Shown here piece after piece: positions 4,940 through 41,006 of a DNA stretch of 64,000 nucleotides. Below the pieces are notes generated by a model. It was given only the letters and a program-made list of their open reading frames with translations, did not search any database and was not told the origin of the DNA. The translations under genes and the position numbers were made by a program. The stretch comes from Rhynchopus sp. YZ270_cl-10 (Eukaryota; Euglenozoa; Diplonemea; Diplonemida; Diplonemidae): the NCBI GenBank assembly GCA_964035575.1, contig OZ037844.1, positions 1,727,588 to 1,791,587 on the forward strand, read 5' to 3'. The stretch's first letter is position 1. The number at the start of each line of letters is the position of its first letter.

Positions 4940-7900
4940 TGACCAGATACGGAGCCCAGCGGAACGTCACCTCCTCCACCAACGACTGCGGATACCTGGC
5001 GTTGCATTACTGGGATAGCGTAGCTCAGCCGGACGTTAAGGCCCTGCGCAAGGTGGTTGTGGATGCCGCTACGTCGGTGCCCGATAGGATGGTTCAGGTT
5101 TTGGGAAGTGGACTGGCCGTCACGGAGTTTGTAAACGGTGTTTCAGGCACTGCTCACCTAAATCACATGGGGCTCCAGCTCTTCGCCACTTCGCAGCAGA
5201 AGAACATCGTGGTGGTGCAGGCTAGTGAGGACGACCCGCTGGTGCTCATCTCCCCGGGGTGCCGTTTCCTGACGGCCGCGGCCATTGCTAAGTTCCAAGA
5301 CACGTTGGATACAGTGGTCATCAGCCTCTGCGGCTCGCATTTCGAATACGTGTCCGTAGGGGCGGACAACGCGAATTCGAAGGAGTCCGTCGCATGGAAG
5401 ATGCGTAAGGCTGCGCGAGACGCCGTTTTGGACCCGGCCCAGAAGATCGGCCCCATCCCCACCACCACCAGGACGACGGCGCCCCTATCAACTAAGTTGG
5501 GGAACATCAACGCCGAGCGAGTGTTCTGCCCCTTCGACAAGTGCCGCCAGGGAATCCTGTCATCCTTCAAGGGTGAGGGGCTGTGCAGGAAGAGCATCCT
5601 GGACCACATGCGCCGGCACCAAGCAGAGGACTCTTATGTGTCGGACGACCTCCTCGGACACCTCGGGATGGCCCGCTGCGCCAATGATCAATGCGACAAA
5701 ATCATCCCAGGTTCTAGAGAGTGGTGCAACCTATGTGAGGTGGCTTTTGGCGAGGCGGGTTTCACGGCCCCGGACCGACGTGATCGGGGCGGACTCACGG
5801 CCGAAGATGACCTCCCTACTTTCGAGGCTATTGGCACCACGCGTGTGCAACTCAAAGGGGGCTGTCCGGAGGCTTACCTTGAGCAGTATTCGCGACTTTT
5901 CCTGAAGGTTTTGCTGGACATACTGTCACACCAGGACGAGCTCGCGTGGAAAAAATTTGCTTTGTTTTTCACGGTCCTCCACAGAGTGCGGTCGGATCGA
6001 GGGGGGGAGGGGCAGGCCAAGCGTCATTCTCGCGGTTGGGCGAAGGATTTGCAGCTCTGGGAAGAAGGGAAATTCGTCACTTTGTGGAACGACACCGTTG
6101 AGGGCCGCAAACCTCCTGCTGCGTGGACTGACGGCGATACCGTAGAGGGGAAGAAGAAGCGAGCGGTGGCGAAGGCAAGGGCGGGTCTGCCAAGCCAGGC
6201 CATGACGAGCGCCACCAGCGCGGGTGTTGCCCCCCACACGAAGGTGACTTTGGAGAAGCTGGAGGCCAAGCACCCCTCACCCGACGCCGATCCGGGGGTT
6301 TTCGATTGGCCGGATACAGTTGACGTTCCGCCTGTGACGCCGCTTGAGTTGATGAAGGCCATGCGCAGCATGCCGCGATCGTCCGCAGCTGGCCCCTCCC
6401 ACGTCACGGGAGCTCACCTCCGTACCCTCTGTTTGCAGCGTCGGGCTGGGTCTAAGGGCGCTCTAGGGGCCTTGGCGGCTGTACTCTCCTCGCTGGCCAA
6501 AGGGGAGGCCCCGCCTGAGGTGTCCCATTTCCTGGCAGGGGCGAACCTGGTTGCTTTACGGAAGTTGGCAAAGACTCCCGATCAGGAGGAGGATGTGCGG
6601 CCCATTGCCGTTGGAGACACGCTCAGACGGCTGGTGGGCAAGATCCTGGCGACTCGGGTGCGTACTCAGTCCCGTTCCATCTTCCTCAGGGGGAACCAAG
6701 TGGGAGTGGCAATGCCCAGGGGTACTTCAGCGGCGGCGGATGTCATTGCGCAGTACGCAGAGCGCCACAAGGAGGATGACAAGGTAATCCTCAAAATAGA
6801 TTACCGCAATGCCTTTAACAGCATTGATCGGACCGAGATGCTTCGCGCCGTGGATGCACACCTCCCCGAGCTGGCTCCCTGGGTGAGGTGGTGTTACATG
6901 TCTCCATCTTGCCTTTTCTTCGGCGAGGCCATCGTGAGGTCACAGAGGGGGGCTCAGCAAGGGGACCCCCTCGGTCCTCTGCTGTTTGCCCTCACCATAC
7001 ACCAAATGACGTTGGAGCTCCGTAGTGTGCCGGACTTGGATGGTACGTTGTGGTACCTGGACGACGGCTCCTTGCGTGGCCCCCCAGAGGCGGTGTACAA
7101 GGCATACCAGATTCTGCTAGAACGCAGTGTCCGCCTGGGTCTGGAGGTGAACGAGAGTAAGTGTGAGCTCGTTGCGATGGGGGGTCTGACGGCGCAACAA
7201 CTTGGACAGGTCGGCTTTGTGATCCGGGACGATAAGCAGCAGGGAGGGGAGGGTTTCAAGCTGCTAAGCCACACGGGTTTCGAATTTTTGGGTCTGCCGA
7301 TTGGAACCAGTGCGTATTGTGAGGAGTACATGCTGGTAAAGATGGAGACAACGCGGTCTAACCTCAGGGCCCTCATCGAACTGGATGACGCGCAGGTGGC
7401 GTACTACATCCTGCGTTACTGCGAAGGCTTCTGCCGCATGGTTTTTTACATGCGTGGGGTGACGGTGGTGGCCACAAAGTACCTGGGGATTTTCGACGAG
7501 GAGATCGGCAAGTGCCTCGCTGCCCTCCTGCACGACGCTCACGGTAGCCTTCCGCAGCTCGCCAGGGACCAGGCTGCCCTCCCCATTGCAATGGGAGGTC
7601 TAGGGATACGCAGAACCCGGGATCACTGGTCGGCAGCAGCTCTTGCGTCCCAAGCTGGGAACTTCCAGTTGGCGCAAACCCTCGACCCACAGTACGCCTG
7701 GGATGCTCTGAGATGGAAGCATGCTGTTTCAGACTACAACGAGAGGGTGGACCTGAAGTACAAACTCAACACAGACCAGCCCACCCAGCTCCCTGTCCAG
7801 CAGAAGCTCTCGGCGGCTATTGTTGATGCGCAGGCAGACAAGCTCATGCTGGCCTTGAGCACGAGGGACCGTGCCCGCATGAAGTCCCTTCTCCTCCCCA

Positions 7901-8805
7901 TGTCCGGGGCGTACCTCACAGCGATCCCCTCCAACGCCAACATGTTGGAGAGCACCACCTTTGCGGCGGTGACGCGTTTCCGGCTAGGAGTGGCCATCCA
8001 TGTGCCGGACTCCGTCTGCTCTTGTTGCTCTGGTGCGGGGACGCAACTTAAGATGGACGCGTATGGGGACCACTCCTTCGCCTGTTCCCACAGGGGATGC
8101 AGAATCCGCCGGCATGATGCCCTGAAACTTGCTCTGGGGGAGGCCGCGACAGGTGCTGGTCTAGGCCCGGTGATCGAGCAGCGTACAGGGGAACCAGGTG
8201 AGGGTGGCCAGCGACCAGCTGACATTTACCTGCCAGGAGGCGTATCTGAGAGCGCGCCGCGGTGTTTGGATGTGACCCATGTCGCCCCGACCCTGCCCTC
8301 CTACCGCCGGCCCGCTGCGAAGTTTATTGGGTGGACGGCGAAGACTCAAGGTCAGAGGAAGAGGGAGAAGCACGAGTTGTACTGCCGGCAGCACAGGATG
8401 TCCTTTTCGCCGGTGGTGTTTGAGGCCTTTGGCGGAGCTGGGGACGAGGCGAATTTGCTGTTAGCTCAGCTGGGTGGTCTGGCAAAAGATGTGTCTTCCC
8501 GTCTGGTGGGGTCGGCTGAGACGCGTATCCGCGAGCGGGTAGCTATTCGCTATCAGAAAGAAGTCGGTGCCTCTTTCCTGCGTAGGGGGGCTTTGTGCTT
8601 GGGGATTTCGACCATTGGTTCCCACAAGGAAAGCGGAACCCCGGAAGAGACGGACCCACAAACCCGCAAACCCGCAAACCCGCAAACCCGCAAACCCGCA
8701 AACCCGCAAACCCGCAAACCCGTAAACCCGCAAACCCGCAAACCCGCAAACCCGCAAACCCGCAAACCCGCAAACCCGCAAACCCGCAAACCCGCAAACC
8801 CGTAA
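4930..8805 (+). CDS. Non-LTR retrotransposon polyprotein: zinc fingers, reverse transcriptase, restriction-like endonuclease
   Basis: Residues are counted from the leucine codon at 5002. The frame is open from 4915; there is no ATG at the start because the 5' part is cut off by retroposon copy 3. A short N-terminal stretch contains NDCGYLAL, resembling the catalytic-Cys region of Ulp1-type cysteine proteases, which some NeSL/Utopia-type non-LTR elements carry. A Cys/His finger lies at about 174-207 (CPFDKC and HMRRH), with a second Cys cluster after it. The reverse transcriptase shows motif A KIDYRNAF (Asp600), motif B AQQGDPLGP (about 651-659) and motif C WYLDDG (Asp687, Asp688). After it come a CCHC knuckle (about 1006-1033), RRHD (1036-1039), RPADIYL (Asp1074) and CLDVTH (Asp1090), which fit the R2-like endonuclease fold. 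All catalytic motifs look intact. There is no stop before the AACCCGCA array; the TAA at 8803 comes from a repeat variant. Confidence 0.9.
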   Translation, partial: DRVLTRYGAQRNVTSSTNDCGYLALHYWDSVAQPDVKALRKVVVDAATSVPDRMVQVLGSGLAVTEFVNGVSGTAHLNHMGLQLFATSQQKNIVVVQASEDDPLVLISPGCRFLTAAAIAKFQDTLDTVVISLCGSHFEYVSVGADNANSKESVAWKMRKAARDAVLDPAQKIGPIPTTTRTTAPLSTKLGNINAERVFCPFDKCRQGILSSFKGEGLCRKSILDHMRRHQAEDSYVSDDLLGHLGMARCANDQCDKIIPGSREWCNLCEVAFGEAGFTAPDRRDRGGLTAEDDLPTFEAIGTTRVQLKGGCPEAYLEQYSRLFLKVLLDILSHQDELAWKKFALFFTVLHRVRSDRGGEGQAKRHSRGWAKDLQLWEEGKFVTLWNDTVEGRKPPAAWTDGDTVEGKKKRAVAKARAGLPSQAMTSATSAGVAPHTKVTLEKLEAKHPSPDADPGVFDWPDTVDVPPVTPLELMKAMRSMPRSSAAGPSHVTGAHLRTLCLQRRAGSKGALGALAAVLSSLAKGEAPPEVSHFLAGANLVALRKLAKTPDQEEDVRPIAVGDTLRRLVGKILATRVRTQSRSIFLRGNQVGVAMPRGTSAAADVIAQYAERHKEDDKVILKIDYRNAFNSIDRTEMLRAVDAHLPELAPWVRWCYMSPSCLFFGEAIVRSQRGAQQGDPLGPLLFALTIHQMTLELRSVPDLDGTLWYLDDGSLRGPPEAVYKAYQILLERSVRLGLEVNESKCELVAMGGLTAQQLGQVGFVIRDDKQQGGEGFKLLSHTGFEFLGLPIGTSAYCEEYMLVKMETTRSNLRALIELDDAQVAYYILRYCEGFCRMVFYMRGVTVVATKYLGIFDEEIGKCLAALLHDAHGSLPQLARDQAALPIAMGGLGIRRTRDHWSAAALASQAGNFQLAQTLDPQYAWDALRWKHAVSDYNERVDLKYKLNTDQPTQLPVQQKLSAAIVDAQADKLMLALSTRDRARMKSLLLPMSGAYLTAIPSNANMLESTTFAAVTRFRLGVAIHVPDSVCSCCSGAGTQLKMDAYGDHSFACSHRGCRIRRHDALKLALGEAATGAGLGPVIEQRTGEPGEGGQRPADIYLPGGVSESAPRCLDVTHVAPTLPSYRRPAAKFIGWTAKTQGQRKREKHELYCRQHRMSFSPVVFEAFGGAGDEANLLLAQLGGLAKDVSSRLVGSAETRIRERVAIRYQKEVGASFLRRGALCLGISTIGSHKESGTPEETDPQTRKPANPQTRKPANPQTRKPVNPQTRKPANPQTRKPANPQTRKPANP

Positions 8806-9580
8806 ACCCGCAAACCCGCAAACCCGCAAACCCGCAAACCCGCAAACCCGCAAACCCGCAAACCCGCAAACCCGCAAACCCGCAAACCCGCAAACCCGCA
8901 AACCCGCAAACCCGCAAACCCGCAAACCCGCAAACCCGCAAACCCGCAAACCCGCAAACCCGTAAACCCGCAAACCCGCAAACCCGCAAACCCGCAAACC
9001 CGCAAACCCGCAAACCCGCAAACCCGCAAACCCGCAAACCCGCAAACCCGCAAACCCGCAAACCCGCAAACCCGCAAACCCGCAAACCCGCAAACCCGCA
9101 AACCCGCAAACCCGCAAACCCGCAAACCCGCAAACCCGCAAACCCGCAAACCCGCAAACCCGCAAACCCGCAAACCCGCAAACCCGCAAACCCGCAAACC
9201 CGCAAACCCGTAAACCCGCAAACCCGCAAACCCGCAAACCCGCAAACCCGCAAACCCGCAAACCCGCAAACCCGCAAACCCGCAAACCCGCAAACCCGCA
9301 AACCCGCAAACCCGCAAACCCGCAAACCCGCAAACCCGCAAACCCGCAAACCCGCAAACCCGCAAACCCGCAAACCCGCAAACCCGCAAACCCGCAAACC
9401 CGCAAACCCGCAAACCCGCAAACCCGCAAACCCGCAAACCCGCAAACCCGCAAACCCGCAAACCCGCAAACCCGCAAACCCGCAAACCCGCAAACCCGCA
9501 AACCCGCAAACCCGCAAACCCGCAAACCCGCAAACCCGCAAACCCGCAAACCCGCAAACCCGCAAACCCGCAAACCCGCA
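8653..9580 (+). repeat. AACCCGCA satellite array 1, flush with the retrotransposon 3' end
   Basis: There are 115 exact-length 8-base units from 8661 to 9580, with a near-copy ACCCACA just before. Occasional units read AACCCGTA. The C-rich strand is on top. The array directly follows the endonuclease coding region with no 3' untranslated region or A-tail. Because three units make 24 bases, all three forward frames encode the same repeating peptide; these are not genes. Confidence 0.95.
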
Positions 9581-13081: not shown

Positions 13082-13800
13082 AAACCCCCGCAAACCCCCG
13101 CAAACCCGCAAACCCGCAAACCCGCAAACCCGCAAACCCGCAAACCCGCAAACCCGCAAACCGCAAACCCGCAAACCCGCAAACCCGCAAACCCGCAAAC
13201 CCGCAAACCCGCAACCCGCAAACCCGCAAACCCGCAAACCCGCAAACCCGCAAACCCGCAAACCCGCAACCCGCAAACCCGTAAACCGCAAACCCGCAAA
13301 CCCGCAAACCCGCAAACCCGTAAACCCGCAAACCGCAAACCCGCAAACCGCAAACCCGCAAACCCGCAAACCCGCAAACCCGCAAACCCGCAAACCCGCA
13401 AACCCGCAAACCCGCAAACCCGCAACCCGCAAACCCGCAAACCCGCAAACCCGCAAACCCGCAAACCCGCAACCCGCAAACCCGCAAACCCGTAAACCCG
13501 CAAACCCGCAAACCGCAAACCCGCAAACCCGCAAACCCGCAAACCCGCAAACCCGCAAACCCGCAAACCCGCAAACCCGCAAACCCGCAAACCCGCAAAC
13601 CCGCAAACCCGCAAACCCGCAAACCCGCAAACCCGCAAACCCGCAAACCCGCAAACCCGCAAACCCGCAAACCCGCAAACCCGCAAACCCGCAAACCCGC
13701 AAACCCGCAAACCCGCAAACCCGCAAACCCGCAAACCCGCAAACCCGCAAACCCGCAAACCCGCAAACCCGCAAACCCGCAAACCCGCACAAACCCGCAA
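13082..13800 (+). repeat. AACCCGCA satellite array 2, irregular, ending at a gap
   Basis: Same 8-base unit and same orientation as array 1, but with many 7-base units (AACCGCA, ACCCGCA) and two longer first units (AACCCCCGC). It ends in the assembly gap, so its true length is unknown. Confidence 0.95.
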
Positions 13801-14000
13801 NNNNNNNNNNNNNNNNNNNNNNNNNNNNNNNNNNNNNNNNNNNNNNNNNNNNNNNNNNNNNNNNNNNNNNNNNNNNNNNNNNNNNNNNNNNNNNNNNNNN
13901 NNNNNNNNNNNNNNNNNNNNNNNNNNNNNNNNNNNNNNNNNNNNNNNNNNNNNNNNNNNNNNNNNNNNNNNNNNNNNNNNNNNNNNNNNNNNNNNNNNNN
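13801..14000. other. Assembly gap of exactly 200 N
   Basis: The gap removes the junction between satellite array 2 and the first unit of the gene array, including the promoter and start codon of that unit's gene 1. The round size suggests a placeholder or estimate. Confidence 0.99.
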
Positions 14001-14533: not shown

Positions 14534-14669
14534 CCCAGGTGAGGTGTGCACTGGCTGTGCATGCAGGAGGAGGAGTAAGAGGTGCTATGGTGTGCGGAAC
14601 GCACAGGTGAGGTGTGCACTGACTGTGCATGCAGGAGGAGGAGTAAGAGGTGCTGTGGGGTGCGGAACG
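14534..14669. repeat. 68-base tandem duplication before the satellite
   Basis: The block beginning CCAGGTGAGGTGTGCACTG occurs twice in a row with a few differences, including TGCATGCAGGAGGAGGAG in both. It is present at the same place in every unit, for example 22049-22184 in unit 2. Confidence 0.8.
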
Positions 14670-14684
14670 TAGGGTATCGTGTTA

Positions 14685-17105
14685 CGTGCGCATGTAGTGT
14701 ATGGTGATACATGCGCACGCTGTGTATAGTGTACTGTGCGCACGTAGTGTATAGTGATACGTGCGCACGTGGTGCGCACGCTGTGTATAGTGTTCCGTGC
14801 GCACGTAGTGAAGAGTTTACTGTGCGCACGTGGTGCGCACGCTGTGTAGAGTGTACTGTGCGCACGCTGTGAAGAGTGTACTGTGCGCACGTGGTGCGCA
14901 CGCTGTGTATAGTGTACTGTGCGCACGTAGTGTATGGTGTACTGTGCGCACGTAGTGAAGAGTGAACTGTGCGCACGCTGTGTATGGTGTACTGTGCGCA
15001 CGTAGTGAAGACTGAACTGTGCGCACGCTGTGAAGAGAGTACTGTGCGCACACTGTGTATGGTGTACTATGCGCACGTAGTGAAGACTGAACTGTGCGCA
15101 CGCTGTGTATAGAGTACTGTGCGCACACTGTGTATAGTTTACTGTGCGCACGCTGTGTATGGTGTACTGTGCGCACGTAGTGAAGAGTGAACTGTGCGCA
15201 CGCTGTGTATAGTTTACTGTGCGCACGCTGTGTATGGTGTACTATGCGCACGTAGTGAAGACTGAACTGTGCGCACGCTGTGTATAGAGTACTGTGCGCA
15301 CACTGTGTATAGTTTACTGTGCGCACGCTGTGTATGGTGTACTGTGCGCACGTAGTGAAGAGTGAACTGTGCGCACGCTGTGTATAGCGTACTGTGCGCA
15401 CACTGTGTATAGTTTACTGTGCGCACGCTGTGTATGGTGTACTATGCGCACGTAGTGAAGACTGAACTGTGCGCACGCTGTGTATAGAGTACTGTGCGCA
15501 CACTGTGTATAGTTTACTGTGCGCACGCTGTGTATGGTGTACTGTGCGCACGTAGTGAAGAGTGAACTGTGCGCACGCTGTGTATAGCGTACTGTGCGCA
15601 CACTGTGTATAGTTTACTGTGCGCACGCTGTGTATGGTGTACTGTGCGCACGCTGTGTATGGTGAACTGTGCGCACGTAGTGTATAGAGTACTGTGCGCA
15701 CACTGTGTATAGTGTACTGTGCGCACGCTGTGTATGGTGAACTGTGCGCACGTAGTGAAGAGTGAACTGTGCGCACACTGTGTATGGTGTACTGTGCGCG
15801 CGTAATGTATAGAGTACAGTGCGCACGTGGTGCGCACGTATCACTACACTACGTGCGCACAGTACACTATACACAGTGTGCGCACAGTTCACTCTTCACT
15901 ACGTGCGCACAGTTCACCATACACTACGTGCGCACAGTTCACCATACACAGCGTGCGCACAGTTCACTCTTCACTACGTGCGCACAGTTCACCATACACT
16001 ACGTGCGCACAGTTCACCATACACAGCGTGCACACAGTTCACTCTTCACTACGTGCGCACAGTACACCATACACTACGTGCGCACAGTTCACCATACACA
16101 GCGTGCGCACAGTACACTACACACAGTGTGCGCATAGTTCACTGTGTGCACAGTTCACTCTTCACTACGTGCGCACAGTACACCATACACTACGTGCGCA
16201 CAGTTCACCGTACACAGCGTGCGCACAGTACACTACACACAGTGTGCGCACAGCTCACTCTTCACTACGTGCGCACAGTACACCATACACTACGTGCGCA
16301 CAGTTCACCATACACAGCATGCGCACAGTACACATAACACAGCGTGCGCACAGTTCACTCTTCACTACGTGCGCACCACGTGCGCACGGAACACTAGACA
16401 CAGCGTGCGCACCACGTGCGCACAGTACTCTATGCACGACGTGCGCACGTATCACTAAACACTACGTGCGCACAGTAAACTCTTCACTACGTGCGCACAG
16501 AACACTATAGACAGCGTGCGCACCACGTGCGCACGTATCACTATACACTACGTGCGCACCACGTGCGCACAGTAAACTCTTCACTACGTGCGCACGGAAC
16601 ACTATACACAGCGTGCGCACCACGTGCGCACGTATCACTATACACTACGTGCGCACCACGTGCGCACAGTAAACTCTTCACTACGTGCGCACGGAACACT
16701 ATACACAGCGTGCGCACCACGTGCGCACGTATCATTATACACTACGTGCGCACCACGTGCGCACGTATCACTATACACTACGTGCGCACCACGTGCGCAC
16801 AGTAAACTCTTCACTACGTGCGCACAGAACACTATACACAGCGTGCGCACCACGTGCGCACGTATCACTATACACTACGTGCGCACCACGTGCGCACAGT
16901 AAACTCTTCACTACGTGCGCACAGAACACTATACACTACGTGCGCACCACGTGCGCACAGTAAACTCTTCACTACGTGCGCACGGAACACTGTACACAGC
17001 GTGCGCACCACGTGCGCACGTATCACTATACACTACGTGCGCACCACGTGCGCACAGTACACTATACACTACGTGCGCACGTAGCACTCCTCACTACATG
17101 CGCAT
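14685..17105. repeat. GTGCGCAC satellite forming a giant near-palindrome, unit 1
   Basis: The left arm (14685 to about 15830) is made of 25-base monomers: the palindrome GTGCGCAC plus a 17-base spacer of a few types. The right arm (about 15840-17105) is the reverse complement of the same monomers. Element order is mirrored too: both outer ends carry the same TGCGCATGTAGTG word in opposite orientation, and both outer parts carry the GTGCGCACCACGTGCGCAC variant. The outer right arm is a 97-base higher-order repeat. The axis is at about 15834. It lies between exon 1 and exon 2 of gene 1, so it is probably intronic. Peptides readable here in every frame are repeat artefacts. Confidence 0.95.
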
Positions 17106-17236
17106 GGAAGCGTTGATATATTATTCAAGTGACAATGTTCTAATTATAGGTTATACACATTCTATTATTTGATAAATATTACAGCAATACCATAATAATT
17201 GGTCTATACTCTATGTACTACTAAACAACATTACAG

Positions 17237-18741
17237 GTGACCCCGTCATAGCGATACGGAAGGTGTACCGCACGCTGAACAAGAAGGTGGAATACTACGA
17301 GCAGCAAGGAGTACTGCTCCGGCTAGTAGACGGAGTGCTGGCGGATCGGTCCACCGAGCGCAACAGGAAGAAGGGGGATCCGTACGAGGTATGAATATAC
17401 ACTAAGTACCACATATATAATTCATACTACTTTTTACAGCGCGAGGAGTACGGACCCCAGGGGGAGCAGCCGCCGCCGAGCTGCCTGGAATTTGAGTTCC
17501 AGGCAGCACTCGACCACTCCGAGAATGGAGTGGTCGAGGAGGCGTGGCGACCCCACCTCCAGCGTAGGCTGGAGCTGGCGTGCCGACCGGCACGACAGGC
17601 GAAGAGGGAGTACGAGCTCCGTATGTCTTATTATACATTACCTATGCGTTTCCTCATATTTATATTATTCCCCCTTACTACAGCTCCCGAGGTCCGCAGC
17701 CTCGGATTTGGGACGTACGTCCCAACCGCACAGGAGGAGAAGCAGCAGAGGGAAGACGCGAAACGCGTCGTCGCGAACGGTCGGAGGATCGTCGCGACCC
17801 TCATGCTGTCGTCAGAGCTGATCATCAGCGACGACAGCAAGGTATGTGCTCAAACCTCCCACCTTCTATATTACTATACCAAAACATCACAGATCCATTC
17901 ACTGTTGACGGACACACTGAAACGCCCAGAGGACGAGGACACGCAGCGCGCGTCAGGGTCCGTGAGCGTGAGCGGACCGGGAGAGCCGCAGCCGCCCCCC
18001 GACAGCCACCCCCACGCCGGGCCGTCCGAGCTGACGTTCCCCCACGCCACCATGTCGGTTCCGTGGGCCCGTCTCCGGACGGCCCTGTGGGTGGCAGGAG
18101 GGGTGCGGGGCCTCCCCGAGCTCGAGGCTGCGGTAGAGGCGGAAAAAAACAGAGAAAAAAAAGCAAAGAAAAGGAGGGGTAAACCCCAGGACCAGTTCCA
18201 GGCGTGGTCCGAGGGAAAGGACTCCCAGTCCCAGGAGTGGGACTGGGTGTATACGGAAACGAATAGGCCGGGAAGAAAAAGAAAAAGGGAAACAGGACAA
18301 CCCAGGCGCGAGAACACCACCACCTCGCCCTCCCCCTGCCTCCCACCCCAGATGTACGCACTGCCGTACGACACCCCCCCCAGCTCCGCACAAAATAGTG
18401 AAAAAAAAAGAAGGGTAGGATGTGATATAAAAAAAACAGAAACCAAAAAGGAAAGCGAAGAAGAAACCAAAAAAGAAAAAAAAGTAGAAACAAAAAAACA
18501 GACCAAAAGAGAGAGAGAAGAAGCCGCTGCTAAAAAGCAGTGGCTTGATGCCTACCAAAAAATGGGCACGGAGGAAAAAAAGCAGTGGTGCATGGAGTGC
18601 GGCTTTAATTGCTGCGCTTCATGCACCACTCTTGTGGCATGCCATAACAGCTGCCACAAGAGAATACCCTCCAAATGGAAACAACGAAAAGAAGGGCGTG
18701 CAGTGCACGCAAGCGCCAAAATCATGCATAAAGCGAGATAA
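17237..18741 (+). CDS. Gene 1 exons 2-5, unit 1: unknown Lys/Glu-rich protein with Cys-rich C-terminus
   Basis: Exons 17237-17388, 17440-17620, 17684-17841 and 17893-18741. Exon boundaries, phases and protein are identical to unit 2, described in full there. Clear exon hairpins in this copy: 17481-17506, 17509-17538, an 18-base palindrome at 17708-17725, nested stems at 17806-17837, 18224-18247, 18584-18630, 18631-18660 and 18696-18710. The four short introns between and around these exons contain none that I could see. Confidence 0.7.
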
Positions 18742-18857
18742 GCACTATTTTTATATATTTTTGTTTTGTTTACTAAATTTTTATTTTTCAGACATGTCCC
18801 CCTAGATCACCTCCAGCCTCCCCCCTCTCTTCCAAATAATGTTTGAGCTAAATGAAA

Positions 18858-18864
18858 TATAAAG
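18858..18864 (+). promoter_or_regulatory. TATA box of gene 2 (TATAAAG), unit 1
   Basis: Lies 88 bases ahead of the gene 2 ATG in the short spacer after gene 1. The same site recurs in all complete units. Confidence 0.5.
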
Positions 18865-18951
18865 AACCCCTATACCCTCCCCTTTTTACTTTAGTTTATC
18901 ATCAGATACACTTTTTAATCCTCATCACATCCCATCAGACGTACACACACA

Positions 18952-20044
18952 ATGAGGGTGAAGATGGCGCGGAGACGGCCGGTCCCAGCCCCACCCCCAA
19001 TGGCGGCGATTCAGGCCCCAGCCCCAGCCCCAAAGGCGGCGACGAGAAGGAAGAGGAAGCGCAAGCGGGCGGCGACAGTGTCCTCCGCGTCCGCCGGGGG
19101 GTCGTCGGTGGGGAATATGTCCTCATTCTCCCCCGGCGCCCCCGGCGCCCCCGACGCCCCCACCTCCGTCATGCCGCGGAGCCCCACCACCACCACCAAC
19201 ACTGCCTCAGGTATGTATTCCCTCATACATTATTACATCGTTTTTAATTAAGTACGTAGTTATTAATCCCCCATCACAGAGACCGCCACCAGACAACGCC
19301 TGTCAGTGGTGAAGGTGCAGGCGAAGGCGCGGCTAGAAGCCGCCATGCAGGCAACGGAGGAGCCACCGAGGGTATGTTATATAATTCTCCCCTATATTAG
19401 CTCCCCCTTTATCCCAAGAATTACAACACTATACAGGAGAGTATGTCCCTCAGATTCGAAGTTGAGGCTACGGTAAGCTCAGAAGAAGAACCCGAGTGGA
19501 AAGAAAAAGTATGTATTTTAATTGTATTGTACCTATTTTTGTCATGCTATTTTATTTTTCTCAGAAACAGGCGATCCTGGCCAGGACACGCCAAATCCAG
19601 CATAAAATGCTGGAGGCGTACGCCGGGAAGGAGGACACGGACACGGACTGGAGAGAGTCCGTGTCGTCGCAGGGAGCCGGCAGCGACGAGGAGTACGAGG
19701 AAAAGGGGGGAGAGGGGGGGAGGGGCAAAGAGGTGGAGGTGGCATCGGGGAGGTGGGTGAGTGTAAGGGTGGGGGTTAGGGGGGAGGGGGTTAAGGGGGA
19801 GGGGGTTAAGGGGGAGGGGTATGGGGTCGCAACCGACGGTTGCGTCCCATACGAGGTGGGAACGGGGGAGGTGCCAAACGCAGACCAACTTAAAATGTTG
19901 GCTACTGCGGGCATCGCCCCCGGGGACGAGGGACTAGTCCCGCTCCCCCACAAGCACGACACCAGACAGACATGTCTGGTGCTCGTGACGAGAACAGAGG
20001 GGGGGGGGGTCTCTGTTACCCCCCCCTCCAAAAAAGGCAGCTGA
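18952..20044 (+). CDS. Gene 2, unit 1: unknown basic/acidic protein, four exons
   Basis: Exons 18952-19210, 19280-19371, 19437-19508 and 19565-20044. Donors are GTATGT in all three introns; acceptors are CACAG, TACAG and CTCAG. Phases (1, 0, 0) join without a stop to give 300 residues. The N-terminus is Pro/Ala-rich with a basic cluster RRKRKRKRA (about 32-40), a likely nuclear signal; the middle is charged and helical; the end is Gly/Glu-rich and then mixed. No known domain. Perfect hairpins lie in the exons: 19596-19614, 19640-19665 and 20037-20060, the last covering the stop codon. An 11-G run at 19999-20009 precedes the stop; a one-base change there would fuse this frame to the following open frame. 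It sits about 210 bases after gene 1, same strand. Confidence 0.7.
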
Positions 20045-20846
20045 CACCCCAGTCAGCTGCCCCCAGAGGCTCCTAACGACTAGGAGCCTCTGGTGCCACA
20101 ACCACCTTACGCGTGTGCGTGGTGGCACAGGGGGCAGAACGCAGCGCGTCCTCGCTAACGAGGAGAACGACAGGAGACGCGCCTACGCTAATGCGTGGGA
20201 AAGACGCCACAACGCAGAACAGGGCAGCGCCCTTGCTTTTGTGCCTCCAGTAGCGGCTAAAGCTACTCTGGTCATCGCTGCGTTCCTGGAAACGGAGGTG
20301 GCTGTCACCATCTACTCTACGAGTAGCGATGGTGACAGCATCCTGACTGCAGTCAGGATGCTACCACACCCCAGCCTCGCGCAAGTGAGGTCGAACGGCG
20401 CTCTGCGCCGTTCCTTGTTCAACGAGCCCCTGTGGCTGAGTACAGGCACACCTGACGTGTGCTTTATTCGGCTGAAGGCTGCTCTGAACAAGAAAAAACA
20501 CGGGGAGTGGGTGGACTTCGCAAGGAGACAAACAAAAGCGCAGGCTCGACTGGAGGAAGAGGGAATCAAGCTGATCGTGATGCTTTATCATGTTGGAATC
20601 ATAATAATCCATCACGAGCAGATTGATGGCCTCTCCACCTTCAAACGAGCCACGGAGTACCACGCCACTGCTCAACAGGACAGCCTGTCGTACTCGAAGA
20701 CGGGGCTAGTGATCCTCCTTGACGAGGGGGATCACTACTCCAGAATCAAGAACAAAAGCGACGCTGACCGCGTCGCGTTCGCAAACTGGTATCAAACGTC
20801 CATGTCAGGTAGAGTAACGGTTCATCAGAACTTGGCTAGACCTTAA
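19989..20846 (+). CDS. Third open frame, unit 1; probable continuation of gene 2
   Basis: A stop-free frame of 285 codons that overlaps the end of gene 2 in another phase. It has no ATG in its first 120 codons, so it is unlikely to start on its own. The sequence looks like a real folded protein (mixed hydrophobic and charged, segments such as VIAAFLETEVAVTIYS and KLIVMLYHVGIIIIHH) but matches nothing I know. Joining gene 2 to it by loss of one G in the 11-G run would give about 567 residues. Alternatives are programmed slippage, an undetected intron, or a consensus error copied into all units. Perfect hairpins: 20065-20091, 20301-20339, a 26-base palindrome at 20337-20362, 20393-20413, 20708-20736 and 20758-20776. 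Confidence 0.55.
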   Translation, partial: REQRGGGSLLPPPPKKAADTPVSCPQRLLTTRSLWCHNHLTRVRGGTGGRTQRVLANEENDRRRAYANAWERRHNAEQGSALAFVPPVAAKATLVIAAFLETEVAVTIYSTSSDGDSILTAVRMLPHPSLAQVRSNGALRRSLFNEPLWLSTGTPDVCFIRLKAALNKKKHGEWVDFARRQTKAQARLEEEGIKLIVMLYHVGIIIIHHEQIDGLSTFKRATEYHATAQQDSLSYSKTGLVILLDEGDHYSRIKNKSDADRVAFANWYQTSMSGRVTVHQNLARP

Positions 20847-21503
20847 GGCCACTAGTATTTCTTATAGTGACCTTCAGGTGTAATCAAAATTCTCATGAAC
20901 GTGTACTACACGTGACATGCCTTAGTAATACCAGTTGTAGAATTCAATATTTCCTCCTTTATCTATTGTTAATGTGATTTAGCAGGGAAAGCATTTTCCC
21001 TCATAAGTATTTTCCTTTTACAAAGACATTTTTCAGCGAAAGAATACATTTTGTTAAATATTTACAGCATTTTCTGTACAGTAGAATGCATATTTTATGT
21101 GTCGTGTAGACTTCTTCGAGATCAGCCGTTTTCCGTAACTCACGCGTCCTTTGCGTGCAATTAGATCACTTCTTACGGAAAACGTCATTTCTCTTGAGTA
21201 ATAAAAAATATTTTGGGCCCAGCACAGACTGGCCCAAGAAGGCAAGGAACGAACTGTAAAAACTAACGAAATATAGAGAAAGAAAGGCCATATGGGGGGG
21301 TTCCACATAGATATCGAAAGCAAATAACGCAAGAAGGGAAAAAAGACAGTATAAATAACAGAACGAAAAAAAAGAGGTCTACCTCACCTGCACCCCATTT
21401 CTATTTAATCTGCTTTCATATCCCACCTCCACCACTCTCCTCACCACAGATTACACAATACAATGACTTGCCTAACTCCCTAAAAAAAATAAAAGCAAGT
21501 AAA
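20847..21503. other. Inter-unit spacer and gene 1 promoter region, end of unit 1
   Basis: AT-rich with hairpins GGGAAA/TTTCCC (near 20985), CGTTTTCCGTAA/TTACGGAAAACG (21127-21184) and TTGGGCC/GGCCCAA (21213-21237). A TATA box is at 21350-21357. Then comes a pyrimidine-rich leader with a six-codon upstream open frame (ATG 21463, stop 21481) before the gene 1 ATG at 21504. Confidence 0.6.
21350..21357 (+). promoter_or_regulatory. TATA box of gene 1 (TATAAATA), unit 2
   Basis: Lies 147 bases ahead of the gene 1 ATG. The same sequence stands at the same place before units 3, 4, 5 and 6 (28690, 35805, 43405 and 51005). Confidence 0.55.
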
Positions 21504-21614
21504 ATGATGGAGGCGGAGGCGGAGGCGGAGGCGGGGTCGGCTCATACGCCACCCCCCCTCCTGGGACAATCCTCAGTCCCAGCAGCAGCGAAGGAGACGG
21601 AGAAGACAACAGCG
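21504..21614 (+). CDS. Gene 1 exon 1, unit 2
   Basis: Thirty-seven codons from a double ATG (21504, 21507) through a Glu-Ala run made by GAGGCG repeats, to a GTATGT donor at 21615. The next clear acceptor (TTACAG, 24576), preceded by a CTACTAAAC branch-point-like word, needs one extra base to keep frame. So either the donor is the GTAACT four bases downstream, which restores frame, or a further small exon lies in the 2.9-kb intron. Another AG at 24524 would also keep frame but would make an AT-rich exon. The frame also runs on past the donor to 21938, so a single-exon 145-residue product cannot be excluded. Confidence 0.5.
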
Positions 21615-22199
21615 GTATGTAACTTTTACCCCTTTTTATTACTTTTTCTTCGTATGTCATTTCAACACTCCGGATTCTCGGCTCATGATGCCTCCTTACA
21701 AGAGGCGCAAACTCTGCTTAGCCGCATGGGTCCGCTCCCACCGCAGCTCCGCATCCTTCACGCGTACCGGTCAGTCATGCACGCACATCCCACACGACGT
21801 CTTTCCTTCACCTATGTGAACGTCCACGAAGATGTTGGGTCTTCCTTGCTATCCTCCGCAGCAGCACGCTTCGCGCCTACTCCTCCGCCCGCACCATGGG
21901 AAGGGTGCCAGCATCAGTGTCACCTAGGTCCGTCATGAACAGGTCCCTCTCGGGCTTGTTTTTCTATTTCAGCCTGTTCACAGGCTTAACCTTGTTAGTT
22001 CCTCATTCTCTTTGTTTTTTTTTTATTTTTTGCAAATACGAAGTGTAACCCAGGTGAGGTGTGCACTGGCTGTGCATGCAGGAGGAGGAGTAAGAGGTGC
22101 TATGGTGTGCGGAACGCACAGGTGAGGTGTGCACTGACTGTGCATGCAGGAGGAGGAGTAAGAGGTGCTGTGGGGTGCGGAACGTAGGGTATCGTGTTA

Positions 22200-24576: not shown

Positions 24577-26081
24577 GTGACCCCGTCATAGCGATACGGA
24601 AGGTGTACCGCACGCTGAACAAGAAGGTGGAATACTACGAGCAGCAAGGAGTACTGCTCCGGCTAGTAGACGGAGTGCTGGCGGATCGGTCCACCGAGCG
24701 CAACAGGAAGAAGGGGGATCCGTACGAGGTATGAATATACACTAAGTACCACATATATAATTCATACTACTTTTTACAGCGCGAGGAGTACGGACCCCAG
24801 GGGGAGCAGCCGCCGCCGAGCTGCCTGGAATTTGAGTTCCAGGCAGCACTCGACCACTCCGAGAATGGAGTGGTCGAGGAGGCGTGGCGACCCCACCTCC
24901 AGCGTAGGCTGGAGCTGGCGTGCCGACCGGCACGACAGGCGAAGAGGGAGTACGAGCTCCGTATGTCTTATTATACATTACCTATGCGTTTCCTCATATT
25001 TATATTATTCCCCCTTACTACAGCTCCCGAGGTCCGCAGCCTCGGATTTGGGACGTACGTCCCAACCGCACAGGAGGAGAAGCAGCAGAGGGAAGACGCG
25101 AAACGCGTCGTCGCGAACGGTCGGAGGATCGTCGCGACCCTCATGCTGTCGTCAGAGCTGATCATCAGCGACGACAGCAAGGTATGTGCTCAAACCTCCC
25201 ACCTTCTATATTACTATACCAAAACATCACAGATCCATTCACTGTTGACGGACACACTGAAACGCCCAGAGGACGAGGACACGCAGCGCGCGTCAGGGTC
25301 CGTGAGCGTGAGCGGACCGGGAGAGCCGCAGCCGCCCCCCGACAGCCACCCCCACGCCGGGCCGTCCGAGCTGACGTTCCCCCACGCCACCATGTCGGTT
25401 CCGTGGGCCCGTCTCCGGACGGCCCTGTGGGTGGCAGGAGGGGTGCGGGGCCTCCCCGAGCTCGAGGCTGCGGTAGAGGCGGAAAAAAACAGAGAAAAAA
25501 AAGCAAAGAAAAGGAGGGGTAAACCCCAGGACCAGTTCCAGGCGTGGTCCGAGGGAAAGGACTCCCAGTCCCAGGAGTGGGACTGGGTGTATACGGAAAC
25601 GAATAGGCCGGGAAGAAAAAGAAAAAGGGAAACAGGACAACCCAGGCGCGAGAACACCACCACCTCGCCCTCCCCCTGCCTCCCACCCCAGATGTACGCA
25701 CTGCCGTACGACACCCCCCCCAGCTCCGCACAAAATAGTGAAAAAAAAAGAAGGGTAGGATGTGATATAAAAAAAACAGAAACCAAAAAGGAAAGCGAAG
25801 AAGAAACCAAAAAAGAAAAAAAAGTAGAAACAAAAAAACAGACCAAAAGAGAGAGAGAAGAAGCCGCTGCTAAAAAGCAGTGGCTTGATGCCTACCAAAA
25901 AATGGGCACGGAGGAAAAAAAGCAGTGGTGCATGGAGTGCGGCTTTAATTGCTGCGCTTCATGCACCACTCTTGTGGCATGCCATAACAGCTGCCACAAG
26001 AGAATACCCTCCAAATGGAAACAACGAAAAGAAGGGCGTGCAGTGCACGCAAGCGCCAAAATCATGCATAAAGCGAGATAA
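24577..26081 (+). CDS. Gene 1 exons 2-5, unit 2 (reference copy): unknown Lys/Glu-rich protein with Cys-rich C-terminus
   Basis: Exons 24577-24728, 24780-24960, 25024-25181 and 25233-26081. Introns are 51, 63 and 51 bases with GTATGA or GTATGT donors and ACAG/CACAG acceptors. Phases (0, 1, 0) join without stops and continue to TAA at 26079. With exon 1 the protein is about 484 residues. Exons 2-4 encode charged helical sequence. Exon 5 encodes a Pro-rich part, a Trp-containing part, a long Lys/Glu coiled-coil-like stretch, then a Cys cluster of pattern C-x2-C-x3-CC-x2-C-x5-C-x3-C near the C-terminus followed by a basic tail; zinc binding is plausible. No family recognised. The exons carry perfect inverted repeats throughout, and the Cys cluster itself is encoded by two nested long stems. 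Identical in all complete units, which suggests recent amplification or gene conversion. Confidence 0.7.
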
Positions 26082-26291
26082 GCACTATTTTTATATATTT
26101 TTGTTTTGTTTACTAAATTTTTATTTTTCAGACATGTCCCCCTAGATCACCTCCAGCCTCCCCCCTCTCTTCCAAATAATGTTTGAGCTAAATGAAATAT
26201 AAAGAACCCCTATACCCTCCCCTTTTTACTTTAGTTTATCATCAGATACACTTTTTAATCCTCATCACATCCCATCAGACGTACACACACA

Positions 26292-27384
26292 ATGAGGGTG
26301 AAGATGGCGCGGAGACGGCCGGTCCCAGCCCCACCCCCAATGGCGGCGATTCAGGCCCCAGCCCCAGCCCCAAAGGCGGCGACGAGAAGGAAGAGGAAGC
26401 GCAAGCGGGCGGCGACAGTGTCCTCCGCGTCCGCCGGGGGGTCGTCGGTGGGGAATATGTCCTCATTCTCCCCCGGCGCCCCCGGCGCCCCCGACGCCCC
26501 CACCTCCGTCATGCCGCGGAGCCCCACCACCACCACCAACACTGCCTCAGGTATGTATTCCCTCATACATTATTACATCGTTTTTAATTAAGTACGTAGT
26601 TATTAATCCCCCATCACAGAGACCGCCACCAGACAACGCCTGTCAGTGGTGAAGGTGCAGGCGAAGGCGCGGCTAGAAGCCGCCATGCAGGCAACGGAGG
26701 AGCCACCGAGGGTATGTTATATAATTCTCCCCTATATTAGCTCCCCCTTTATCCCAAGAATTACAACACTATACAGGAGAGTATGTCCCTCAGATTCGAA
26801 GTTGAGGCTACGGTAAGCTCAGAAGAAGAACCCGAGTGGAAAGAAAAAGTATGTATTTTAATTGTATTGTACCTATTTTTGTCATGCTATTTTATTTTTC
26901 TCAGAAACAGGCGATCCTGGCCAGGACACGCCAAATCCAGCATAAAATGCTGGAGGCGTACGCCGGGAAGGAGGACACGGACACGGACTGGAGAGAGTCC
27001 GTGTCGTCGCAGGGAGCCGGCAGCGACGAGGAGTACGAGGAAAAGGGGGGAGAGGGGGGGAGGGGCAAAGAGGTGGAGGTGGCATCGGGGAGGTGGGTGA
27101 GTGTAAGGGTGGGGGTTAGGGGGGAGGGGGTTAAGGGGGAGGGGGTTAAGGGGGAGGGGTATGGGGTCGCAACCGACGGTTGCGTCCCATACGAGGTGGG
27201 AACGGGGGAGGTGCCAAACGCAGACCAACTTAAAATGTTGGCTACTGCGGGCATCGCCCCCGGGGACGAGGGACTAGTCCCGCTCCCCCACAAGCACGAC
27301 ACCAGACAGACATGTCTGGTGCTCGTGACGAGAACAGAGGGGGGGGGGGTCTCTGTTACCCCCCCCTCCAAAAAAGGCAGCTGA
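26292..27384 (+). CDS. Gene 2, unit 2
   Basis: Exons 26292-26550, 26620-26711, 26777-26848 and 26905-27384. Translation, intron signals and the 11-G run are identical to unit 1, where the protein is described. TATAAAG lies 94-88 bases upstream of the ATG. Confidence 0.7.
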
Positions 27385-28186
27385 CACCCCAGTCAGCTGC
27401 CCCCAGAGGCTCCTAACGACTAGGAGCCTCTGGTGCCACAACCACCTTACGCGTGTGCGTGGTGGCACAGGGGGCAGAACGCAGCGCGTCCTCGCTAACG
27501 AGGAGAACGACAGGAGACGCGCCTACGCTAATGCGTGGGAAAGACGCCACAACGCAGAACAGGGCAGCGCCCTTGCTTTTGTGCCTCCAGTAGCGGCTAA
27601 AGCTACTCTGGTCATCGCTGCGTTCCTGGAAACGGAGGTGGCTGTCACCATCTACTCTACGAGTAGCGATGGTGACAGCATCCTGACTGCAGTCAGGATG
27701 CTACCACACCCCAGCCTCGCGCAAGTGAGGTCGAACGGCGCTCTGCGCCGTTCCTTGTTCAACGAGCCCCTGTGGCTGAGTACAGGCACACCTGACGTGT
27801 GCTTTATTCGGCTGAAGGCTGCTCTGAACAAGAAAAAACACGGGGAGTGGGTGGACTTCGCAAGGAGACAAACAAAAGCGCAGGCTCGACTGGAGGAAGA
27901 GGGAATCAAGCTGATCGTGATGCTTTATCATGTTGGAATCATAATAATCCATCACGAGCAGATTGATGGCCTCTCCACCTTCAAACGAGCCACGGAGTAC
28001 CACGCCACTGCTCAACAGGACAGCCTGTCGTACTCGAAGACGGGGCTAGTGATCCTCCTTGACGAGGGGGATCACTACTCCAGAATCAAGAACAAAAGCG
28101 ACGCTGACCGCGTCGCGTTCGCAAACTGGTATCAAACGTCCATGTCAGGTAGAGTAACGGTTCATCAGAACTTGGCTAGACCTTAA
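27329..28186 (+). CDS. Third open frame, unit 2; probable continuation of gene 2
   Basis: Identical to the unit 1 copy: no early ATG, overlaps the end of gene 2 in a +1 phase, and follows the same 11-G run. Confidence 0.55.
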   Translation, partial: REQRGGGSLLPPPPKKAADTPVSCPQRLLTTRSLWCHNHLTRVRGGTGGRTQRVLANEENDRRRAYANAWERRHNAEQGSALAFVPPVAAKATLVIAAFLETEVAVTIYSTSSDGDSILTAVRMLPHPSLAQVRSNGALRRSLFNEPLWLSTGTPDVCFIRLKAALNKKKHGEWVDFARRQTKAQARLEEEGIKLIVMLYHVGIIIIHHEQIDGLSTFKRATEYHATAQQDSLSYSKTGLVILLDEGDHYSRIKNKSDADRVAFANWYQTSMSGRVTVHQNLARP

Positions 28187-31691: not shown

Positions 31692-33196
31692 GTGACCCCG
31701 TCATAGCGATACGGAAGGTGTACCGCACGCTGAACAAGAAGGTGGAATACTACGAGCAGCAAGGAGTACTGCTCCGGCTAGTAGACGGAGTGCTGGCGGA
31801 TCGGTCCACCGAGCGCAACAGGAAGAAGGGGGATCCGTACGAGGTATGAATATACACTAAGTACCACATATATAATTCATACTACTTTTTACAGCGCGAG
31901 GAGTACGGACCCCAGGGGGAGCAGCCGCCGCCGAGCTGCCTGGAATTTGAGTTCCAGGCAGCACTCGACCACTCCGAGAATGGAGTGGTCGAGGAGGCGT
32001 GGCGACCCCACCTCCAGCGTAGGCTGGAGCTGGCGTGCCGACCGGCACGACAGGCGAAGAGGGAGTACGAGCTCCGTATGTCTTATTATACATTACCTAT
32101 GCGTTTCCTCATATTTATATTATTCCCCCTTACTACAGCTCCCGAGGTCCGCAGCCTCGGATTTGGGACGTACGTCCCAACCGCACAGGAGGAGAAGCAG
32201 CAGAGGGAAGACGCGAAACGCGTCGTCGCGAACGGTCGGAGGATCGTCGCGACCCTCATGCTGTCGTCAGAGCTGATCATCAGCGACGACAGCAAGGTAT
32301 GTGCTCAAACCTCCCACCTTCTATATTACTATACCAAAACATCACAGATCCATTCACTGTTGACGGACACACTGAAACGCCCAGAGGACGAGGACACGCA
32401 GCGCGCGTCAGGGTCCGTGAGCGTGAGCGGACCGGGAGAGCCGCAGCCGCCCCCCGACAGCCACCCCCACGCCGGGCCGTCCGAGCTGACGTTCCCCCAC
32501 GCCACCATGTCGGTTCCGTGGGCCCGTCTCCGGACGGCCCTGTGGGTGGCAGGAGGGGTGCGGGGCCTCCCCGAGCTCGAGGCTGCGGTAGAGGCGGAAA
32601 AAAACAGAGAAAAAAAAGCAAAGAAAAGGAGGGGTAAACCCCAGGACCAGTTCCAGGCGTGGTCCGAGGGAAAGGACTCCCAGTCCCAGGAGTGGGACTG
32701 GGTGTATACGGAAACGAATAGGCCGGGAAGAAAAAGAAAAAGGGAAACAGGACAACCCAGGCGCGAGAACACCACCACCTCGCCCTCCCCCTGCCTCCCA
32801 CCCCAGATGTACGCACTGCCGTACGACACCCCCCCCAGCTCCGCACAAAATAGTGAAAAAAAAAGAAGGGTAGGATGTGATATAAAAAAAACAGAAACCA
32901 AAAAGGAAAGCGAAGAAGAAACCAAAAAAGAAAAAAAAGTAGAAACAAAAAAACAGACCAAAAGAGAGAGAGAAGAAGCCGCTGCTAAAAAGCAGTGGCT
33001 TGATGCCTACCAAAAAATGGGCACGGAGGAAAAAAAGCAGTGGTGCATGGAGTGCGGCTTTAATTGCTGCGCTTCATGCACCACTCTTGTGGCATGCCAT
33101 AACAGCTGCCACAAGAGAATACCCTCCAAATGGAAACAACGAAAAGAAGGGCGTGCAGTGCACGCAAGCGCCAAAATCATGCATAAAGCGAGATAA
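31692..33196 (+). CDS. Gene 1 exons 2-5, unit 3
   Basis: Exons 31692-31843, 31895-32075, 32139-32296 and 32348-33196; product identical to unit 2. Confidence 0.7.
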
Positions 33197-33406
33197 GCAC
33201 TATTTTTATATATTTTTGTTTTGTTTACTAAATTTTTATTTTTCAGACATGTCCCCCTAGATCACCTCCAGCCTCCCCCCTCTCTTCCAAATAATGTTTG
33301 AGCTAAATGAAATATAAAGAACCCCTATACCCTCCCCTTTTTACTTTAGTTTATCATCAGATACACTTTTTAATCCTCATCACATCCCATCAGACGTACA
33401 CACACA

Positions 33407-34499
33407 ATGAGGGTGAAGATGGCGCGGAGACGGCCGGTCCCAGCCCCACCCCCAATGGCGGCGATTCAGGCCCCAGCCCCAGCCCCAAAGGCGGCGACGA
33501 GAAGGAAGAGGAAGCGCAAGCGGGCGGCGACAGTGTCCTCCGCGTCCGCCGGGGGGTCGTCGGTGGGGAATATGTCCTCATTCTCCCCCGGCGCCCCCGG
33601 CGCCCCCGACGCCCCCACCTCCGTCATGCCGCGGAGCCCCACCACCACCACCAACACTGCCTCAGGTATGTATTCCCTCATACATTATTACATCGTTTTT
33701 AATTAAGTACGTAGTTATTAATCCCCCATCACAGAGACCGCCACCAGACAACGCCTGTCAGTGGTGAAGGTGCAGGCGAAGGCGCGGCTAGAAGCCGCCA
33801 TGCAGGCAACGGAGGAGCCACCGAGGGTATGTTATATAATTCTCCCCTATATTAGCTCCCCCTTTATCCCAAGAATTACAACACTATACAGGAGAGTATG
33901 TCCCTCAGATTCGAAGTTGAGGCTACGGTAAGCTCAGAAGAAGAACCCGAGTGGAAAGAAAAAGTATGTATTTTAATTGTATTGTACCTATTTTTGTCAT
34001 GCTATTTTATTTTTCTCAGAAACAGGCGATCCTGGCCAGGACACGCCAAATCCAGCATAAAATGCTGGAGGCGTACGCCGGGAAGGAGGACACGGACACG
34101 GACTGGAGAGAGTCCGTGTCGTCGCAGGGAGCCGGCAGCGACGAGGAGTACGAGGAAAAGGGGGGAGAGGGGGGGAGGGGCAAAGAGGTGGAGGTGGCAT
34201 CGGGGAGGTGGGTGAGTGTAAGGGTGGGGGTTAGGGGGGAGGGGGTTAAGGGGGAGGGGGTTAAGGGGGAGGGGTATGGGGTCGCAACCGACGGTTGCGT
34301 CCCATACGAGGTGGGAACGGGGGAGGTGCCAAACGCAGACCAACTTAAAATGTTGGCTACTGCGGGCATCGCCCCCGGGGACGAGGGACTAGTCCCGCTC
34401 CCCCACAAGCACGACACCAGACAGACATGTCTGGTGCTCGTGACGAGAACAGAGGGGGGGGGGGTCTCTGTTACCCCCCCCTCCAAAAAAGGCAGCTGA
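33407..34499 (+). CDS. Gene 2, unit 3
   Basis: Exons 33407-33665, 33735-33826, 33892-33963 and 34020-34499; product identical to unit 1. Confidence 0.7.
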
Positions 34500-40796: not shown

Positions 40797-41006
40797 GCAC
40801 TATTTTTATATATTTTTGTTTTGTTTACTAAATTTTTATTTTTCAGACATGTCCCCCTAGATCACCTCCAGCCTCCCCCCTCTCTTCCAAATAATGTTTG
40901 AGCTAAATGAAATATAAAGAACCCCTATACCCTCCCCTTTTTACTTTAGTTTATCATCAGATACACTTTTTAATCCTCATCACATCCCATCAGACGTACA
41001 CACACA

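Follow-up and report, generated by a model that had tools for sequence, protein, structure and literature searches.

Inverted repeats seldom overlap protein-coding sequence (PMC6649704). The nearest precedent for the locus described here is the set of coding palindromes in the mitochondrial genes of Nematomorpha, which were counted from 15 bp up and have a mean of 43 and a maximum of 142 bp (PMC6649704). Among them the longer repeats avoid phase 3 and the short ones lean to phase 3; they too lack a settled explanation, and the authors discuss repeat conversion such as template switching (PMC6649704). In coding genes of Saccharomyces, template-switch stems of 7-16 bp are isolated events in about 1% of the genes (PMC8604942). 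The present study concerns two neighboring genes, A and B, at positions 17237-20846 of a 64,000-nt stretch of DNA (the window) from the diplonemid Rhynchopus sp. YZ270_cl-10, which is the right end of contig C12 (1,727,588-1,791,587) in a genome of 152.4 Mb and 126 contigs. The gene pair is repeated in a tandem array, and its exons (A1-A4 and B1-B4) carry perfect hairpins in numbers beyond chance.

The palindromic elements of Rickettsia are palindromes in reading frames and occur as dispersed copies of families; the array also has reading-frame palindromes and differs in that its arms have no 7-mer in common. Coding RNA with dense local hairpins is found in single-stranded RNA viruses and phages, which the array genes resemble in hairpin density, and no viral gene was recognized in the parts searched. 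As in Nematomorpha, many perfect, scattered and closely spaced inverted repeats lie in protein-coding genes and their function is unsettled, whereas the array stems reach at most 13 bp, compared with at least 15 bp in the nematomorph count, and the array genes, unlike those mitochondrial ones, have spliceosomal-type GTATGT...CAG introns and are tandemly arrayed on a contig of 1.79 Mb (PMC6649704). The length-dependent phases of Nematomorpha can be set beside a ratio of 1:9:7 for phases 1:2:3 in the array, where all stems are short (PMC6649704). Perfect short stems and short spacers in coding DNA are also features of the Saccharomyces template-switch mutations, but these are isolated events, unlike the 15 stems of at least 9 bp and the coding-strand bias of the array gene pair (PMC8604942). 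A sequence-only reading of this DNA had known of no such family, which overlooked the nematomorph palindromes, although these differ in compartment and length. No spliceosomal-intron or nuclear coding-palindrome gene of this kind was among the literature matches listed, which does not prove its absence.

RESULTS

Stems were counted by a single script as non-overlapping, perfect inverted repeats with a loop of 0-30 nt, in the region 17237-20846 and in 200 dinucleotide shuffles of it. The region has 26 stems of at least 7 bp where 5.12 are expected, 19 of at least 8 bp (1.21 expected), 15 of at least 9 bp (0.29 expected; shuffle maximum 3) and 10 of at least 10 bp (0.04 expected; maximum 1). Synonymous codon shuffling, which keeps the protein and the codon usage (300 shuffles each), leaves the hairpin excess standing: stems of at least 9 bp number six in gene A (0.47 expected, maximum 3), four in the first part of gene B (0.49, maximum 3) and four in its second part (0.16, maximum 2). 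The sequence-only reading was thus right that the density is beyond random. All the stems that it quoted exist where it placed them, some being longer than given (17480-17507, 11 bp; 20063-20093, 13 bp), and the exons that hold them, put by it at about 2.3 kb, total 3.05 kb.

Ordinary genes of the same genome were represented by 21 sampled open reading frames (ORFs; 32.4 kb), which hold 14 stems of at least 9 bp against 6.75 expected. Eight of the 14 belong to a satellite that had been taken for an ORF, one lies in a copy of the element on contig C52, and the remaining 5 compare with about 6 expected, 2.75 of which come from one low-complexity ORF. The sampled ORFs are near chance in stem number, and the stem density of the gene pair is about 30 times theirs (15 in 3.05 kb versus 5 in 31.7 kb). 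Fifty-eight fold windows from four other ORFs have a mean z-score (z) of −0.05, the lowest being −9.3, in the ORF at 925. The non-array DNA, ORFs included (63.3 kb), has 30 stems of at least 9 bp where 8.0 are expected; by our reading 26 of them fall outside the sampled ORFs, and one of these 26 is a relic of the element on contig C51. Palindromes seem to be somewhat common in the non-coding DNA of this genome, and not in the sampled genes. A random control of 10 kb (L052), which seems to be of simple composition, has no stem of at least 9 bp where 9.35 are expected, lacks any ORF of 200 amino acids, and was excluded from both pools. At L018, a perfect stem of 17 bp (5698-5759) lies in a glutamine-rich ORF which the overlap filter left out of the ORF sample and which, in our own reading of the sequence, belongs to a DIRS-like element; elsewhere in L018 (301-960, contig C52), an apparently non-coding stretch with large nested hairpins (perfect arms, 13-18 bp long) adjoins a like satellite array.

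The hairpins are concentrated in a subset of the exons. With a low-complexity filter, exons A2, A3, A4 and B4 hold 13 stems of at least 9 bp (2, 2, 2 and 7) in 2,471 nt, whereas A1 and B1-B3 hold one in 576 nt, which lies in B1 and is made of G and C runs (A1, B2 and B3 have none), so that the description of the exons as packed with hairpins fits four of the eight. All the stems are given on the plus strand. Those of A2 and A3 lie at 17480-17507 (11 bp), 17509-17538 (12 bp), 17708-17725 (9 bp, a palindrome) and 17804-17839 (10 bp), and those of A4 at 18224-18247 (10 bp), 18584-18630 (11 bp, with three internal G.U pairs if extended) and 18629-18662 (11 bp). Exon B4 contains a string of hairpins from 19960 to 20413, namely 19960-19981, 19997-20028, 20036-20061, 20063-20093 (with the longest perfect arm, 13 bp), 20144-20182, 20301-20339 (a 12-bp stem), 20337-20362 (a 26-base palindrome) and 20393-20413, as well as stems at 19596-19614, 19640-19665, 19828-19844, 20558-20634 (35 nt, 80%) and 20707-20737. 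An imperfect 18-nt stem (20837-20882) straddles the end of gene B. The fold z on the coding strand is −6.7 for A2, −5.4 for A3, −10.9 for A4 and −14.3 for B4 (−6.9, −3.9, −6.0 and −14.0 on the other strand), with local values in B4 as low as −11.5.

The introns (355 nt) have two stems of at least 7 bp (1.18 expected), one of at least 8 bp (0.39 expected) and none of at least 9 bp; they are free of hairpins, as had been claimed, at the last threshold, and otherwise are at chance level rather than empty. Because they are so short that only about 1.6 stems of at least 9 bp would be present at exon density, they are weak evidence. When they are pooled with 17105-17236, 18743-18950 and 20847-21503 (1,352 nt), there is still no stem of at least 9 bp, where the exon density would give about 6 (P about 0.002 by simple arithmetic). 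In 120-nt windows, which overlap, the mean z is −3.02 for exons (42 windows) and −0.85 for non-exon sequence (23 windows; Mann-Whitney P 0.0013). The contrast between exons and non-exon DNA stands for the pooled sequence, although the intron share is too short to carry it and both the spacer after gene B and the adjoining stretch C (21504-22050) are foldable.

Selection on a sense RNA would tolerate G.U pairs but not A.C pairs. The hairpin exons A2, A3, A4 and B4 were cut into 150-nt pieces, and the coding strand was compared with its complement in 150 shuffles. The z is −13.5 for the coding strand and −10.8 for the complement, and the difference between strands is −6.2 as against 31.6 ± 14.4 in the shuffles, none of which (0/150) reached it. 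With the pieces shifted by 75 nt, the strand-difference z is −3.4 (0/60 shuffles). Elsewhere it ranges from −2.03 to +1.04 in seven control ORFs and is −0.36 in A1 plus B1-B3 and 0.08 in the C51 relic. Among 16 internal mismatches in extended stems (score of at least 8), five are G.U and one is A.C, while composition favors A.C stems at the shorter lengths (7.36 of at least 9 bp expected, versus 2.44 for G.U). With Watson-Crick pairs, with G.U allowed and with A.C allowed, the stems number 13, 18 and 16 at 9 bp or more, 10, 14 and 11 at 10 bp or more, 5, 8 and 8 at 11 bp or more, and 3, 7 and 4 at 12 bp or more.

A pairwise comparison of all arms of at least 8 bp found no 7-mer common to any two. 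Only the 13-bp hairpin at 20063-20093 was looked for across the whole genome; with up to 3 mismatches allowed, it is confined to the seven array copies and the C51 relic. Given that the arms lack a common 7-mer and the tested hairpin is undispersed, the hairpins are unlike copies of a mobile palindrome.

The C51 relic is a 234-nt sequence with 77% identity to 19876-20109. Its fold z is −4.4, compared with −2.6 to +2.0 for 14 windows of the same locus. The hairpin sites of exon B4 are recognizable in it at matching places, and several of the stems are degraded. Its single open frame matches both gene B frames (53% over 53 residues and 58% over 36 residues), which supports gene B as a protein gene. 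Relics at L021 (4203-4294) and L022 (4754-4836) cover a gene B intron and no more than a short part of the preceding exon, as though conservation were stronger in introns than in exons.

Both genes are on the plus strand. Gene A (17237-18742) was delimited by a frame that stays open across GTATGT/A...CAG introns; its exons are at 17237-17388, 17440-17620, 17684-17841 and 17893-18742 (A1-A4) and its introns at 17389-17439, 17621-17683 and 17842-17892. It likely has a further exon upstream of 17237, with a 3′ splice site at 17236. Gene B (18951-20846), delimited by open frames, introns and the match of the relic to both of its parts, has exons at 18951-19210, 19280-19371, 19437-19508 and 19565-20846 (B1-B4) and introns at 19211-19279, 19372-19436 and 19509-19564. 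Its frame switches within a G11 homopolymer block near 19998-20010, the N-terminal part having a stop near 20044 and the C-terminal part being open from about 19990. Programmed frameshifting at this poly-G hairpin is possible, and the length of the G-run varies among the copies. GTATGT...ACAG introns are also present in a gene at L020, which looks Pumilio-like by eye; since they are common to both, the splicing of the array genes looks ordinary.

No intact homologue was found. Pfam gave no match at E ≤ 1 for gene A and the C-terminal part of gene B, in a scan that also covered the reverse transcriptase ORF and a zinc-finger ORF; a PDB sequence search gave none for the latter, and no relative of that part was found among phage records or viral contigs, in a search made with it alone. 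Three PDB matches of exon A4 at E 0.7-1.7 were judged not credible. Rfam, run on the whole window at gathering scores, gave no match. A structure prediction for the C-terminal part of gene B, made without relatives, had a predicted local distance difference test score (pLDDT) of 36.6 and was not used.

The gene pairs are parts of near-identical tandem units of 7.1-7.6 kb, each composed of the pair and an inverted GTGCGCAC satellite which separates it from the next. Five copies lie on the plus strand of the window, as seen in a comparison of the array within it, at 17237-20846, 24577-28186, 31692-35301, 39292-42901 and 46892-50501; the spacings of the starts (17237, 24577, 31692, 39292 and 46892) are 7,340, 7,115, 7,600 and 7,600 bp, and the copies are identical over all 3,610 bp. 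Two more are present in reversed orientation at the other end of contig C12, one of them 100% identical to the window copies and the other, at C12:670-4281, differing only in two homopolymers, with one extra C and one extra G. The G-run at 19998-20010, within the hairpin where the frame of gene B changes, is 11 or 12 long depending on the array copy. A sequencing artefact was considered and rejected, as the seven copies agree except in homopolymer lengths.

The satellite at 14667-17104 repeats a 25-bp unit that contains the palindrome GTGCGCAC; its two halves are inverted relative to each other and meet near 15829, and it has 80% identity to its own reverse complement across about 2.5 kb. The array looks like a terminal-inverted-repeat element repeated head-to-tail, and no transposase was recognized in the parts of the element searched. 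Contig C52 carries partial copies of the element and C51, C79, C9 and C90 carry short relics, whereas the matches on C83 and C23 cover nothing beyond the A-rich sequence in exon A4. Several contigs, among them C59 and C102, have matches to parts of 20847-22060. Stretch C, which on the plus strand follows gene B and precedes the next satellite, matches C59 at 77% over 186 bp and may be another exon, with a GTATGT donor at its end; it has one stem of at least 8 bp and none of at least 9 bp. Inside the unit, the hairpin-shaped sequence 21116-21212, with 74-79% matches on C102, C12, C11, C75, C74, C24, C35 and C69, is perhaps a small dispersed repeat resembling a miniature inverted-repeat transposable element. 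A run of N at 13801-14000 adjoins the first array unit and hides the left border of the array. A second, long satellite, (CCCGCAAA)n, occupies 8654-9580, 13087-13800, 53561-55580 and the final 400 bases of the window, and the end of a 1,267-amino-acid reverse transcriptase ORF (5002-8805; RVT_1, 3e-19) runs into a (CCCGCAAA)n repeat.

DISCUSSION

The stems of this gene pair exceed what codon composition gives by chance and are concentrated in a subset of the exons; the exons fold preferentially on the coding strand, mainly in gene A, and the corresponding stems are degraded in the relic. We favor, with a probability of roughly 0.4, the interpretation that the two genes of a satellite-flanked tandem element make messenger RNAs (mRNAs) selected for dense local secondary structure, because such selection would explain together the exon bias, the strand bias and the scarcity of stems in the introns and spacers. 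The hairpins would have evolved one by one, as unrelated stems built from coding sequence, and each would be retained for a function in the spliced sense RNA. We infer transcription of the genes, formation of the stems in cells and selection acting on these stems. Their purpose can only be guessed at; they might shield a selfish repeat's transcript from host RNA decay or silencing, or slow its translation.

Several observations weigh against selection for mRNA structure. On the plus strand, fold z also lies beyond the shuffles in the spacer 20847-21503 (−2.96) and in stretch C (−3.40; −4.6 on the other strand), and the ORF at 925 contains a control window that reaches −8 to −9. The strand bias comes mainly from gene A (0/80 shuffles for A2-A4, and 2/80 without its G.U-rich stem); B4 alone points in the same direction without significance (11/80), and the control ORF at a strand-difference z of −2.03 lies at 2% of its shuffles. 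Allowing G.U or A.C brings an equal gain in stems of at least 11 bp, and mismatches at stem ends show no preference for G.U (stems of at least 7 bp: three G.U, eight A.C). Between the array and the C51 relic, which is a single relic, there are one-sided, pair-breaking changes and no clean double compensation. The differences fall on the three codon positions as 15, 14 and 9 of 67 each, without concentration at the third; as they are spread over the codon positions, this comparison shows no protein-level constraint. Perfect stems and a 26-base palindrome without a spacer also exceed what an RNA needs.

The close rival, which we regard as a serious candidate, is that quasi-palindrome correction, in which DNA synthesis switches templates between inverted repeats with imperfect arms, has repeatedly perfected short repeats. 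The coding DNA would then be fast-evolving and weakly constrained, and the hairpins mutational by-products spread by homogenization of the array. This process accounts for the perfection of the stems, the short spacers and the missing compensation: the stems consist of perfect Watson-Crick pairing that in most cases stops abruptly, no internal mismatch at all is present in 12 of the 20 exonic hairpins, and loops of at most 6 nt dominate (12 of the 18 exonic stems of at least 8 bp). The lack of a third-position bias between array and relic, the excess of stems in the non-array DNA and the 17-bp stem in the DIRS-like ORF are in agreement with it, and the process is documented in coding genes of yeast, where it is associated with short spacers (PMC8604942). 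However, introns, spacers, A1 and B1-B3 are nearly without stems of at least 9 bp and the sampled ORFs are near chance, so that template switching needs an added reason why these were largely spared; the coding-strand bias also speaks against it. The stem phases (the codon positions facing each other) differ from the nearly equal shares expected from stop-filtered random replacement of arms (P about 0.01 by simple arithmetic), the shares in synonymous shuffles being 0.24, 0.31 and 0.45. This objection is weak, since chance stems of at least 6 bp in the reverse transcriptase ORF are similarly skewed (1:8:10) and the skew of the array may merely reflect codon composition. The sequence-only reading had placed template switching on spliced RNA before re-insertion; it survives as a rival at the DNA level, and nothing demands a spliced-RNA intermediate.

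A bolder form of selection on the sense RNA is unlikely in our view. It holds that the array is a selfish tandem element, both messages of which are strings of unrelated perfect hairpins, an "RNA armour", that evade or exploit host RNA surveillance or supply the substrate for an RNA stage that replicates or is packaged.

A role in the DNA itself, with cruciforms or protein-binding palindromes serving the array together with the GTGCGCAC satellite (in homogenization, silencing, or a centromere- or replication-like function), appears improbable. The palindromes of the satellite between the units and the virtual identity of the copies would suit it, but the stems have no common sequence and are scarce in the spacers, and the coding-strand bias is contrary to it.

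It is very improbable that the genes descend from a single-stranded RNA replicon whose structured, hairpin-packed coding RNA was later captured as DNA: the nearly back-to-back hairpins at 19960-20413 and the sense bias recall such an RNA, yet the genes have spliceosomal-type introns, and the searches for Pfam, phage and viral relatives described above were negative for the parts they covered. Mobile palindromic elements inserted in frame, comparable to the Rickettsia palindromic or double-hairpin elements and also proposed in the sequence-only reading, are largely refuted by the unrelated arms, the confinement of the tested hairpin to the array and relic, and hairpin lengths that do not form one family, even though a 12-nt in-frame piece with a small palindrome inside is present in the array and missing from both partial copies on C52. 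Dicer precursors were rejected, as they would need longer perfect stems than the maximum of 13 bp seen here; only the 35-nt stem at 20558-20634, with 80% pairing, would be a candidate.

The array makes testable a question which the nematomorph mitochondria left open, namely whether coding palindromes are a by-product of DNA copying or are kept for the RNA, and the strand-bias test can be applied to any hairpin-rich coding locus. In Rhynchopus, the hairpin excess in two neighboring genes suggests either mRNAs that are selected to fold or an unusual process that makes palindromes.

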